Below, piece by piece: positions 3,250-29,180 of a stretch of DNA of 40,381 bases. The notes under the pieces are model-generated. The model was not told the origin of the DNA. It ran no database searches and worked only from the letters and a program-made list of their open reading frames with translations. Each line of letters begins with the position of its first letter. Within the stretch, counting starts at the first letter, position 1. Made by a program: the position numbers and the translations under genes. This stretch comes from Coriobacteriia bacterium (GTDB lineage: Bacteria > Actinomycetota > Coriobacteriia > WRKU01 > WQUG01): positions 1-40,381 of the forward strand of contig WQYT01000005.1 in the NCBI GenBank assembly GCA_009781115.1, written 5' to 3'.

Positions 3250-4486
3250 GCGCGTCCTGTTAGGCGTCACGGGTTCGATCGCGGCCTACAAAGCCTGCGA
3301 GCTGGTTCGTCTGCTGGTTAAGGAGGACATCGGCGTCCAGGTTGTCATGACCGCGCATGCCACCGAGCTGATGGGGCCAGCGACCTTTCGTTCACTGAGC
3401 GGAAATCCGGTCGCTCTGGATCTCTTTGATGATCCCGGCGCGCCCATCCATCATATAGAGCTGGCCCAGTCCGCGCCGGTCTTTGTCATCGCGCCCTGCA
3501 CCGCCAATGTGGTAAACAAGCTGGCGGCGGGCGTGGCCGATGACCTGCTGACCACAACGGCGCTGGCTTTTACCGGGCGCCTGATCCTGGCGCCGGCCGC
3601 CAACACGCAGATGTATTTGGACGTGGCCACGCAGGAAAGTATTCGCGCGCTTCAGGCCCGCGGGGTCACCGTGCTTACGGCAGATAACGGCGAGCTGGCC
3701 TGTGGCGACGTTGGTCCCGGGCGCCTGCCGGACCCGCGTGTGATTGCCGATGAGGCGCGGCGCGCGCTGCGCAGCAGCGAGGCGCTGGCGGGGCGCCACG
3801 TGGTCATCACCGCCGGCCCCACGCGCGAGGACTTTGACCCGGTCCGCTTCGTGAGCAACCACTCCACGGGCCGCATGGGCTACGCCCTGGCGCGCGCGGC
3901 CCTGCAGATGGGGGCCACCGTCACGCTGATCTCAGGCCCGGTGAGCCTGCCTGCGCCCGTGGACGCGCGCCTGGAGTTTGTGGGAGTCACCAGCGCGCGC
4001 GAGATGAGCGCGGCGGTGCTGCAGGCGGCGGCGACCGCCGACATCGTGCTGGCGGCAGCGGCGGTCGCGGACTTTCGCCCGCGGATCACCTCGGAGGTCA
4101 AGCTCAAGAAGTACGCGCTCTCTGAGCTCTCCGAGCTGCGGGAGGGAGAGACGGTCATCACCGTCGAGCTGGTGCAAAACCCCGACATCGTGACCCAGCT
4201 CAGCGAGGCGCGCGCCGCCGGCGCGCTGAAGCGCGATCTGGTGCTGGTAGGCTTTGCCGCGGAGACCAACGACGTTGACAGCAACGCGCGCGAAAAGCTT
4301 GCCAGCAAAGGCCTGGACTTCATCGTCGCCAACGATGTCTCGCGCGCAGATATCGGTTTTGGCGCTGCCGAAAACGAGGTGCTGGTGATCTCCCCAGAAG
4401 GAGACACCCCCATCGCCAAAGCCAGCAAATTCGAGGTAGCCTGGCAATTACTGGAGCTAATCACCCAAGCAACAAACGCCTCGTGA
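3242..4486 (+). CDS. coaBC: CoaBC, phosphopantothenoylcysteine synthetase/decarboxylase
   Basis: 414-residue bifunctional enzyme of coenzyme A synthesis. CoaB joins 4'-phosphopantothenate with cysteine and CoaC, a flavoprotein, decarboxylates the product to 4'-phosphopantetheine. The CoaC half shows VTGSIAAYKACEL, the catalytic histidine in HHIEL, a substrate clamp APAANTQMY (Ala replaces the usual Met of PxMNxxM) and the active cysteine in LACGDVGPGRLPDP. The CoaB half shows ITAGPTREDFDPVRF, SNHSTGRMGYALA, NPDIV and FAAETND. The start at 3242 follows from overlap with the preceding stop and the immediate family motif. The final codons (Thr-Asn-Ala-Ser-stop, 4472-4486) lie inside a copy of a repeat unit that recurs at 4880, so the C-terminal end was reshaped by repeat insertion. 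Confidence 0.95.
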   Translation: MDKRVLLGVTGSIAAYKACELVRLLVKEDIGVQVVMTAHATELMGPATFRSLSGNPVALDLFDDPGAPIHHIELAQSAPVFVIAPCTANVVNKLAAGVADDLLTTTALAFTGRLILAPAANTQMYLDVATQESIRALQARGVTVLTADNGELACGDVGPGRLPDPRVIADEARRALRSSEALAGRHVVITAGPTREDFDPVRFVSNHSTGRMGYALARAALQMGATVTLISGPVSLPAPVDARLEFVGVTSAREMSAAVLQAAATADIVLAAAAVADFRPRITSEVKLKKYALSELSELREGETVITVELVQNPDIVTQLSEARAAGALKRDLVLVGFAAETNDVDSNAREKLASKGLDFIVANDVSRADIGFGAAENEVLVISPEGDTPIAKASKFEVAWQLLELITQATNAS

Positions 4487-4548
4487 GCGCTTTAGGTACT
4501 GGGCACCGAGCCCCAACTCATGCGTAGGGCGCGGAGACCCGGCGCGCC
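4472..4548 (+). repeat. outer 77-bp repeat unit ending in REP R1
   Basis: A 52-bp lead segment (4472-4523) plus a 25-bp REP (4524-4548). The same unit recurs at 4880-4956 and inverted at 5620-5696; the two plus-strand lead segments differ at about 6 of 52 positions. The REP starts with GTAG, contains an imperfect palindrome (GGCGCGG...CGGCGCGCC) and ends in GGCGCGCC. The first 15 bases form the last codons of coaBC. Confidence 0.85.
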
Positions 4549-4957
4549 TCTGTGCGGGTCGAGAGAAAAGTTGAAGTTTTCATTAATTGAAGACGGCTGT
4601 TCGGGCCATCGAGGCCCTCGCATCCGTTTGAAAATCCAGACAGGCAGTGGATTGTTGATCAGATTGAGACTTTTGCTGCTCCGGACAAGGCGCGCCGGGT
4701 CGGCACGCCCTACGCATTAATGCATTTCGTTGCAACTACAAGTCCCTGAATCATGAGGGGTCTTTTTTTATGAGACAGCCCTCAGGGCCATCGAGGCCCT
4801 TCGGTCTGTATGGGTCGATTGTGGCCGGTGAGTGTTTTGGGTACTTGGCACTGAGTCACAACCGTCGCTCGCGCTCGCGACAAACGTCTCATGAGCGCTT
4901 TGGGTACTGGGCGCTGAGCCCCAACTCATGTGTAGCGCGTGCCGACCCGGCGCGCCT
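4524..4957 (+). repeat. left 434-bp inverted arm of the RAYT element
   Basis: This stretch matches the reverse complement of 5620-6053 almost throughout, with the same overall length of about 434 bp. It contains REP R1 (4524-4548, plus), R2 (4689-4713, minus) and R3 (4932-4956, plus), two copies of the small palindrome GGGCCATCGAGGCCC (4613 and 4785), the terminator at 4744-4769 and a GC-rich palindromic tract near 4863-4880. No protein-coding gene is supported here. R2 and R3 are flanked on their GGCGCGCC side by a TCCGG(A)-type motif. Confidence 0.9.
4744..4769 (+). terminator. intrinsic terminator in the left arm, reading inward
   Basis: CCCT (4744-4747), loop GAATCATG, AGGG(G) and then seven Ts (4763-4769). 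It would stop transcription arriving from coaBC before the transposase gene. The mirrored copy is at 5806-5831. Confidence 0.6.
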
Positions 4958-4988
4958 TGTCCGAAGCAGCAATGGCTTGCATCAATGC

Positions 4989-5013
4989 GTAGCGCGCGGG
5001 GACCCGGCGCGCC
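4989..5013 (+). repeat. REP R4, next to the transposase gene
   Basis: A full-length REP (GTAGCGCGCGGGG, then ACCCGGCGCGCC) outside the symmetric arm, 80 bp before the transposase start. It has GCATCAATGC before it, as REP R6 has at 5851-5860. Confidence 0.8.
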
Positions 5014-5052
5014 TTTGGTCAAAATGATAGTGAACCACAAGCAAAACGACCG

Positions 5053-5058
5053 TATACT
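5053..5058 (+). promoter_or_regulatory. possible promoter of the transposase gene
   Basis: A -10-like TATACT in an AT-rich stretch just upstream of the RAYT gene. The -35 is weak. The ribosome-binding sequence AAGGA (5082-5086) is 8 bp before the GTG start. Confidence 0.4.
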
Positions 5059-5094
5059 ATACATACGAAACCGCTTACTACAAGGAAAATCAGC

Positions 5095-5595
5095 GTGCCT
5101 GAAAGAAAACAAAGAAAACATATACGACTTCAGGATTATGACTATAACCGTGAAGGCCTTTACTTTGTTACAATTTGCACAAAAGATCGACGTGGGCTAT
5201 TAGGAAAAATTTCGGAGTCCGATACTACGAATCTTCGTGTAAGCCTTTCAAAATATGGCGAGATCGTCGACAGGGCCGTTCAGGCAATTCCTGCCCATTA
5301 CGATGGCGTAAGCGAAGATAAATATGTGATAATGCCTAACCACATTCATCTGATTTTGCTTATTGAAGCTGACGACAATTCGGACTCAACTCAGGCTGCT
5401 CATGCGCTACTTTCAACTGTTATTACCGCATTGAAAAGAGTGACAAGTAAAGCGGCGGGTTTCAATTTATGGCAATCTTCTTTTTACGATCATGTTATTC
5501 GCAACGAAGAAGATTATCAAAGGATATGGGACTACATCGATACAAATCCAAAGAAATGGGTACAGGACCGATTTTTTACAGGGCATGCTGAATAG
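5095..5595 (+). CDS. rayt: REP-associated tyrosine transposase (RAYT, Y1/IS200-like)
   Basis: 166-residue Y1 transposase of the HUH superfamily. The HUH motif is PNHIHLILLI, and the catalytic tyrosine helix lies in the segment around FYDHVIRNEEDYQRIWDYID, followed by the family hallmark NPKKW. The N-terminal YDYNREGLYFVTICTKDR is typical of RAYTs. These enzymes bind and nick single-stranded REP hairpins, recognising a GTAG tetranucleotide; the GTAG-headed REPs on both sides here are therefore the likely substrates. The GTG start is set by AAGGA at 5082. The coding sequence is clearly AT-richer than its neighbours, a sign of foreign origin or separate history. The frame is intact, with no truncation. 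Confidence 0.95.
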   Translation: MPERKQRKHIRLQDYDYNREGLYFVTICTKDRRGLLGKISESDTTNLRVSLSKYGEIVDRAVQAIPAHYDGVSEDKYVIMPNHIHLILLIEADDNSDSTQAAHALLSTVITALKRVTSKAAGFNLWQSSFYDHVIRNEEDYQRIWDYIDTNPKKWVQDRFFTGHAE

Positions 5596-5619
5596 CGACC
5601 TTCTCTCGGCCCGAACAAA

Positions 5620-6053
5620 AGCGCGCCGGGTCCCCGCGCGCTACACATGAGTTGGGGCTCGGCGCCCAGTACTCAAAGCGCTCATGAGACGTTTGTCGCG
5701 AGCGCGAGCGACGGTTGCGATTTGGTGCCCAGTGCCCGAAAAATCACCGGCCACGATCGACACATACAGACCGAAGGGCCTCGATGGCCCTGAGGGCTGT
5801 GTCATAAAAAAGACCCCTCATGATTCAGGGGCTTGGAGTTGCAACGAAATGCATCAATGCGTAGGGCGCGGGGACCCGGCGCGCCGCCTGTCCGGAGTAG
5901 CAAAGTCCCAACCTGATCAACAATCCACTGCCTGCCCGGATTGTCAAACGGATGCGAGGGCCTCGATGGCCCGAACAGCCGTCTTCAATTAATAAAATCA
6001 ATTTCCACTTTATTGCTCGCTTGTATAAGGCGCGCCGGGTCGGCAAAGGGTTA
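5620..6053 (-). repeat. right 434-bp inverted arm of the RAYT element
   Basis: Inverted counterpart of 4524-4957. It contains REP R5 (5620-5644, minus), R6 (5861-5885, plus) and R7 (6029-6053, minus; its GTAG end has changed to TAAC), two GGGCC/GGCCC palindromes and the mirrored terminator. Between R6 and R7 lies the ATTAATTGAAGACGGCTG segment, also found at 4582 on the other strand. No gene is supported within it. Confidence 0.9.
5806..5831 (-). terminator. intrinsic terminator in the right arm, reading inward
   Basis: On the minus strand CCCCT, loop GAATCATG, AGGGG is followed by a T-run (A-run 5806-5811 on plus). It would block minus-strand transcription entering the transposase gene from the right. 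Confidence 0.55.
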
Positions 6054-6057
6054 TACT
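6052..6057 (+). promoter_or_regulatory. possible promoter at the right edge of the repeat arm
   Basis: A -10-like TATACT overlaps the decayed GTAG end of REP R7. No clear -35 is visible (the expected position falls in GGCGCG). Transcription would start near 6064 and lead into the two-gene unit at 6104. Confidence 0.35.
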
Positions 6058-6103
6058 ACAGACGGGCGCTCTGATAGGCAGTCTGGCATAGTGAGGAGAT
6101 CGC

Positions 6104-7980: not shown

Positions 7981-7987
7981 TTTTAGT

Positions 7988-8126
7988 GGCGCCTGGCCGC
8001 CGCGGTGAAAACCTCAAGTAGACAACTACGTATCGGATTTCACCGCGACGCCCATGCACTCGCCAAAACATTCTCCGCTTTACCAAACATCCCAAGTAGA
8101 CAACTACGAATCGGCGCCTGGCCGCC
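7988..8126 (+). repeat. paired direct repeats and hairpin downstream of tRNA-Pro
   Basis: GGCGCCTGGCCGCC occurs at 7988-8001 and 8113-8126. AAGTAGACAACTACG, itself a small GTAG/CTAC hairpin, occurs at 8016-8030 and 8094-8108. CGCGGTGAAA (8001-8010) pairs with TTTCACCGCG (8038-8047) around the first inner hairpin. No ORF or known RNA family is recognised; it may be a decayed mobile or structured element. Confidence 0.55.
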
Positions 8127-8147
8127 TCACCAAAACCTTCTCTTATC

Positions 8148-8177
8148 TTGCTCCTTGCGGCAAAATTCAGGTATGAT
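8148..8177 (+). promoter_or_regulatory. promoter of the T-box leader
   Basis: -35 TTGCTC (8148-8153), 18-bp spacer, -10 TATGAT (8172-8177). The predicted start near 8184 is about 40 bp before the conserved AGAGAG of the leader. Confidence 0.45.
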
Positions 8178-8183
8178 TATTAA

Positions 8184-8463
8184 ATCGGCGTTGACGGAGC
8201 CAAGTAGGGTTTGAAGTGTCGCACAGAGAGTTCCCGGTTGATGCGAGGGGCGTGACCTTTCCTGAAAATACTCTCCTGAGCTGCTTGAAGAACAGCGATC
8301 GCTTACGCGTGCGGTCGTCTCAGTAGAACAAGCCGGGTTCGCCCGTGACAGCGATGAGTGCCCCTGGAGGTACTCGGTGAGGTCGGAACTGTGAGGTTTC
8401 GGCGAATAGAGGTGGTAACACGGGTTCCGCTCGTCCTCTAGCAGCTGCTGGAGGACGTTTTTT
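8184..8463 (+). promoter_or_regulatory. T-box riboswitch, specifier UAC (tyrosine)
   Basis: The leader has the T-box landmarks in order: AGAGAG (8225-8230), the GGTTGATG turn, and the specifier loop with TAC at 8269-8271, placed six bases before GAGC as in other T-boxes. Then come the CAGTAGAACAAGCCGGGTT region, the T-box sequence GAATAGAGGTGGTAACACGG (8404-8422) with the variable base U at 8416, and the terminator. UAC reads tRNA-Tyr, and the variable U matches its usual discriminator A. Uncharged tRNA-Tyr would promote antitermination into the transporter genes. The family is clear; the amino-acid assignment follows from alignment by eye. Confidence 0.9.
8432..8463 (+). terminator. T-box attenuator terminator
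   Basis: CGTCCTC (8432-8438) pairs with GAGGACG (8451-8457), followed by six Ts. The alternative antiterminator pairs AGAGG of the T-box sequence with CCTCT. Confidence 0.9.
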
Positions 8464-8545
8464 GTAACACTCGCAATCATGTTGCGGGATTCTCCAGCGT
8501 ACTCATCCAACGCGGGGAACCGCAGACAAGAAGGAGGCATATCAG

Positions 8546-28930: not shown

Positions 28931-29180
28931 GCCGTATAGCAATCAGAACATCATCAAATGACGTCTGAGTGTACGTCTGCTCCGGACCCAGGCGCGCCGA
29001 GGTCGTCGCGCCCTACGTGGCGGGTGCCGATTAGAACGGTACCAACTGACGTCTTTATTTTGGCGTTAGCTGAGATGGTTACGATAAGCAAAAACCGCGT
29101 AGGGCGCGACGACTCGGCGCGCCTGGGTCCGGAACTGCAATGGGCCGTATAGCAATCAGAACGTCACCAGCTAACGCCGG
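28931..29180. repeat. REPIN element with flanking direct repeats
   Basis: Two REPs face away from each other: R8 (28991-29016, minus) and R9 (29099-29123, plus). Both begin GTAGGGCGCGACGAC and end CGGCGCGCC, with TCCGG on the outer side. GCCGTATAGCAATCAGAAC occurs directly repeated at 28932 and 29144. The AGAAC...ACCA..TGACG motif occurs at about 28947, 29033 and 29160. The loop differs from REPs beside the transposase, so this is a second subtype. No gene is supported. Confidence 0.85.

Follow-up and report, generated by a model that had tools for sequence, protein, structure and literature searches.

The DNA analysed here, called the window below, is a 40,381-nt stretch of contig WQYT01000005.1 from a Coriobacteriia bacterium. 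The locus in question is the gene RAYT1, predicted to encode a tyrosine transposase associated with repetitive extragenic palindromes (a REP-associated tyrosine transposase, or RAYT), which is held between two long inverted arms containing GTAG-headed REPs. This locus is very probably a REPtron, i.e., a single-copy RAYT with cognate GTAG REPs on both sides, which would be immobile and whose arms would have arisen by inverted duplication. By every anatomical feature tested at the sequence level, it is a REPtron. REPtrons are an already known kind of element and it is the long composite mirror arms that set this locus apart.

RAYT1 (5095-5595, + strand) encodes a predicted HUH/Y1 single-strand DNA endonuclease of 166 aa. 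Its open reading frame starts with GTG, just preceded by AAGGAAAA, and has no internal stop, as expected from the initial annotation, which had described an intact RAYT between inverted arms. The NCBIfam model REP_Tyr_transpos (NF047646) matches the protein with an E value of 6.4e-20 and a score of 71.5 bits, short of its curated cut-off (80 bits), and a profile built from RAYT1 and its paralogue RAYT2 matches the Escherichia coli RAYT structure 4er8 (E 2.8e-7). In the alignment with 4er8, H83, H85, Y147 and N151 of RAYT1 pair with H60, H62, Y115 and N119 of the E. coli protein, of which H60 and H62 are the HUH pair. The HUH motif (H83-x-H85) and the catalytic tyrosine Y147 are conserved in both RAYT1 and RAYT2. 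In the same way, W126, Q127 and R136 of RAYT1 pair with W94, Q95 and R104, the residues of the E. coli RAYT that contact GTAG (residue roles from PMC6006769). The position of E. coli E100 is occupied in RAYT1 by D132, and an aspartate is also found there in RAYT subclasses 2.5 and 2.7 (PMC6006769). By analogy with the E. coli enzyme, RAYT1 would act on REPs in single-stranded form, such as those on the lagging-strand template, cutting and rejoining them at the GTAG head of the hairpin, and would in this way seed and rearrange REP units in the genome. The gene has a G+C content of 41%, the arms 57-58% and the neighbouring genes 62-67%; a gene poorer in G+C than its flanks is common across the group of RAYTs compared.

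The REPs of the locus were found where the initial annotation had placed them, six of them intact and a seventh headless. On the left side, class-1 REPs (see below for the classes) lie at 4524-4548 (GTAGGGCGCGGAGACCCGGCGCGCC, + strand), 4689-4713 (GTAGGGCGTGCCGACCCGGCGCGCC, - strand) and 4932-4956 (GTAGCGCGTGCCGACCCGGCGCGCC, + strand), the last two being head-to-head with a gap of 218 nt, and an extra class-1 REP at 4989-5013 (+ strand) is the closest to the start of RAYT1. On the right side, the class-1 REP closest to the end of the gene (5620-5644, - strand) is head-to-head, with a gap of 216 nt, with that at 5861-5885 (GTAGGGCGCGGGGACCCGGCGCGCC, + strand). The outermost right REP (6029-6053, - strand, TAACCCTTTGCCGACCCGGCGCGCC) has a decayed head, GTAG being lost and GACCCGGCGCGCC intact. 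REPs are thus in mirror orientation around RAYT1, and likewise around RAYT2. Elsewhere in the window, near the contig start, a half REP on the - strand (492-517) has kept GACCCGGCGCGCC and lost its head.

The proposal that this RAYT has its own REPs is borne out by the mirror GTAG REPs on both flanks and by a genome-wide enrichment. In the window, 22 core REP matches occur where 4.3 are expected, a number reached by none of 100 shuffles. With up to 3 mismatches allowed, the REP pattern GTAGNGCGNGNNGACCCGGCGCGCC matches at 148 places in the whole genome, the reversed control having none. At up to 2 mismatches there are 137 sites, versus 0-2 per genome in the 349 others of the class. Folded as single strands, these REPs form a hairpin at the GTAG head, and the two main forms carry an inner mismatch.

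It should be emphasized that these REPs fall into two subfamilies, as seen from 85 REPs taken from the genome stretches that were read. Class-1 REPs have the loop ACG and an upstream module that is either CTGGCGTCAGCTGG or related to it (49 REPs, none with the other module). Class-2 REPs have the loop GGG or GCC and the module GGTACTGGGCACCGAGCCCCAACTCATGC or GCATCAATGC (24 REPs, again none with the other module). Among REPs with a recognised module, loop type and upstream module are therefore fully associated (49:0 and 0:24, Fisher p 8e-20); the remainder of the 85 have an odd loop or no recognised module. Each of the six intact REPs at RAYT1 belongs to class 1 and each of the six at RAYT2 to class 2. 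These counts are not independent, since either set consists in part of copies of its own members, and the result for RAYT2 is not significant on its own (p 0.14). From these sequence associations, the sister RAYTs appear to be paired each with a separate REP subfamily, RAYT1 with class 1 and RAYT2 with class 2. More tentatively, a duplication of the RAYT may have split the REPs into two enzyme-specific subfamilies, the RAYT1 locus growing its 430-nt arms through an inverted duplication of its REP array and this long-arm REPtron acting as the source array of class 1, a scenario that is possible and yet doubtful. Among the stretches read, 10 of 15 head-to-head pairs have a gap of 82-97 nt, an arrangement that is frequent for class-2 REPs; these are dispersed REPs and not arms. 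Apart from the pairs of the arms, a class-2 pair of this type (28991-29123, gap 82 nt) is the sole complete REP pair observed in the contig, and it lies beyond the aligned synteny with the related genome described below, which ends at about 25.8 kb.

RAYT2 (C59:11455-11922) is a RAYT of the same type in the same genome and is 52% identical to RAYT1. In a tree of 83 RAYT sequences, the two are sisters (support 99/96) nested among RAYTs of gut Clostridia. The closest RAYTs in named genomes are indeed from gut Clostridia, with about 50% identity to RAYT1, and inverted GTAG hairpins lie beside the RAYT gene at several clostridial loci (L188, L176, L127, L128). Within the class, of which 350 genomes were sampled, the next full-length RAYT1-like proteins have 36-44% identity. 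A third RAYT of the genome (C21:22267-22674) has inverted AGACAGAAGAACCGTCCCTGTGTCT-type repeats on its flanks (stretch L095, 1139-2653); it was rejected as part of the RAYT1 system, being of a different kind with unrelated repeats. The identity of RAYT1 as an IS200/IS605 insertion sequence was also rejected: such elements have a near-identical transposase in multiple copies that moves as a unit, while RAYT1 has no second copy in the genome and its nearest paralogue is only 52% identical.

The arms, at 4536-4958 (+ strand) and 5618-6041 (- strand, the inverted copy), are bounded here by their mutual alignment. They form one gapped alignment (4536-4958 versus 6041-5618) of 429 columns with 88.3% identity (E 1.6e-152). 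Its ungapped blocks have 90% (4835-4958/5618-5741), 93% (4764-4836/5739-5811), 93% (4689-4768/5806-5885) and 94% identity (4578-4673/5902-5997), and the longest exact match is 50 nt. The arms are inverted and aligned, as the initial annotation had described them, but "near-identical" overstates an identity of 88-94%. The left array also reaches further out than had been noted, to about 4469. There, an outer class-1 REP unit of 99 nt (4469-4567, + strand) repeats 5601-5699 in inverted orientation with 87% identity, which means that the outer left REP unit is like the inner right one, tail included.

The symmetric architecture had been called unusually large, and so it proved when 81 RAYT loci (RAYT1, RAYT2 and 79 of 80 relatives, one with too-short flanks being left out) were scored by their best inverted flank-match piece within 1.2 kb. 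The arms of RAYT1 are the longest, with 429 columns versus 82 for the runner-up and 50 for RAYT2. Extrusion of the arms as a cruciform is possible, as for any long inverted repeat. As single strands, the arm pieces 4741-4820 and 4836-4960 did not fold clearly better than shuffled sequences.

Each arm is a mosaic in which class-1 REPs are combined with a second hairpin repeat and with filler specific to the locus. The second hairpin family, AGGGCCTCGATGGCCCT, is represented by 15 copies genome-wide; it is present in the left arm at 4784-4800 (- strand), with a related copy at 4602-4618, and in the right arm at 5775-5791 (+ strand), with a related copy at 5957-5973. In addition, a terminator-like hairpin followed by a T run (4742-4769, + strand) points inward to RAYT1, and its mirror copy (5806-5832, - strand) points to the gene from the opposite side; both are weak and do not rise above shuffled sequences. 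The arms could on this basis serve to protect or regulate RAYT1, the inward terminators and hairpins blocking transcripts that enter from coaBC or from the opposite flank and keeping expression low, a role that would be compatible with a REPtron. These mirror copies are the only two terminator-like sites in a 2-kb scan, but shuffled sequence gives 2.2 such sites where 2 are found, and such a protective or regulatory role is rather unlikely.

How the arms were formed can be approached through their ends and their contents. On either side, the mirror alignment stops inside a REP or at most 2 nt away from one, and the full arm is found at this locus only, while pieces of it are dispersed elsewhere in the genome. 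Since the arms are a mosaic of modules that ends at REPs, they suggest an inverted duplication of the REP array, which is the simplest reading of these sequences. A single duplication of this type would account for both arms and could have been made by RAYT-mediated processing at REPs or by template switching of replication at palindromes. Another possibility is that the same modules were gathered on both sides by repeated insertion of REPs, the symmetry resulting from a RAYT acting in both orientations. The dispersal of arm modules is in line with such an independent build-up, as is RAYT2, which has inverted REPs without long arms. However, the collinear identity over 429 columns includes the filler at about 4568-4670, which has no other genomic copy except its short hairpin, and this makes a separate assembly of the two arms improbable.

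The history of the locus can be read in part from a congener, genome G001, which shares with the window a collinear span of about 25 kb (708 to about 25.8 kb). An empty site in a relative had been proposed as a check and one was found: the block 4457-6093 (edges approximate) is absent from the matching site of G001, where coaBC overlaps the next gene and reads into its start, 28 bases separating the end of the coaBC homology from this gene. In the genome of the window, the end of coaBC has been replaced by the REP array, which provides the stop codon TGA (4484-4486). CoaBC thus ends in ITQATNAS, encoded by the array (4469-4486), versus VSDRLRRSDVD in G001. The block would either have arrived here at the junction of coaBC with its neighbour or have disappeared from the sister species. 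No third genome among those searched has coaBC beside the downstream gene and, because of this, gain here and loss in G001 are indistinguishable. No RAYT of the RAYT1 or RAYT2 type, nor any other RAYT, was found in G001, and the flank of RAYT2 has no DNA match there.

The empty site would also fit a mobile composite element, that is, a transposon with long terminal inverted repeats in which RAYT1 would cut at the outermost REPs and move the whole 1.6-kb block with its arms. The outermost REPs do lie at both ends of the block with their heads outward. Nevertheless, the block is single-copy in the genome, the outer REP on the right has lost its GTAG head, and RAYT2, at 52% identity, has no long arms. 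In addition, no close RAYT1 relative was found on the plasmids or phages searched, and transposition as a unit is not known for REPtrons (PMC6006769). Movement as a unit, which had been put forward in the initial annotation, is thus very improbable: RAYT1 and its full arms are single-copy in the genome and nothing beyond the empty site in G001 speaks in its favour. Finally, an assembly artefact, in the form of a false inverted join in a draft genome of 128 contigs and 87.5% completeness, can practically be dismissed, as the two arms diverge by 12% and share no exact match longer than 50 nt, and as the flanks on either side run on in a single collinear region of G001.

Several points weigh against the reading of the locus as a REPtron with duplicated arms. 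The NCBIfam score of RAYT1 is below the curated cut-off and no Pfam family, Transposase_17 being the one sought, was found for it at E 0.001. The binding and cutting of REPs by RAYT1 are predictions from sequence, the inverted-duplication route is deduced from collinearity and end points only, and the pairing of RAYTs with REP classes has the limits given above with its counts. Furthermore, a few REP relics persist without a RAYT in G001: a REP at C11:42225, a REP-like copy on C29 near 6950, and, at C16:1017-1182 (L203), a RAYT-free relic array of one REP and two AGGGCCTCGATGGCCCT hairpins that adjoins a threonyl-tRNA synthetase-like gene. These relics, too, leave arrival and loss indistinguishable. 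They suggest that the REPs, and perhaps also a RAYT, may predate the split of the two species. Arms deprived of a RAYT together with a lack of REP enrichment, which the initial annotation had named as contrary evidence, are not what was found, the short relic array of G001 being the nearest approach.

Downstream of the locus, the region 7982-8530 lacks a counterpart in the alignment with G001, whose matching site has 31 bases. Within it, the stretch 8150-8470 looks like a leader before a gene for a substrate-binding protein of an ATP-binding cassette (ABC) transporter (8546), with AGGTGGTAACACGGG and a G+C-rich hairpin followed by a T run. We take it to resemble a T-box leader. A search of the first 12 kb of the window with Rfam gave tRNA only, no family being above threshold at 8150-8470.

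RAYTs persist for long periods without obvious mobility, and why their hosts keep them is a standing question. With two sister RAYTs, two separable REP subfamilies and a RAYT-less congener that has an empty site and a few relics, this genome offers a clean natural comparison. The two RAYTs and the congener make RAYT-REP specificity and the RAYT-dependent spread of REPs directly testable. As for the long mirror arms, they suggest that a REP array can duplicate in inverted orientation around its own enzyme gene.

In the described REPtrons, a RAYT (TnpA-REP) lies between inverted GTAG REPs (Nunvar 2010, PMC2817692; TnpAY1 classification, PMC6006769), and the 2010 survey found REP-associated RAYTs in gammaproteobacteria only (PMC2817692). 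The present locus shares with them the HUH/Y1 enzyme, the mirror-oriented GTAG hairpins with many dispersed copies per genome, the correspondence of one RAYT to one REP family and a patchy distribution. It differs by its arms of about 430 nt, composite with a second hairpin family, whereas REPtrons have one or a few REPs. Pseudomonas REPINs (Bertels and Rainey 2011, PMC3116915) are likewise inverted REP pairs, and the class-2 pairs, mostly with 82-97-nt gaps, resemble them, with a different spacer and REP sequence; the class-1 pairs of the arms are 216-218 nt apart. Dispersed inverted REP pairs of fixed spacing, which define REPINs, thus occur among the dispersed REPs of the genome and not in the arms. 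TIRtrons (PMC3733652) also have a RAYT-like gene (TIRYT) between long inverted repeats, but these are unrelated to GTAG REPs while the present arms contain such REPs, and this identity was rejected. The closest described case to the arms is that of the P. putida 607 and P. fluorescens 4255 repeats, where REPs and unrelated stem-loop "TIRs" lie beside a RAYT (PMC3733652). There as here, the RAYT is placed between inverted composites of GTAG units and unrelated stem-loops. However, the Pseudomonas composites are dispersed in hundreds and their GTAG units are degenerate, whereas the full arm described here is unique to its locus and its REPs are mostly intact.

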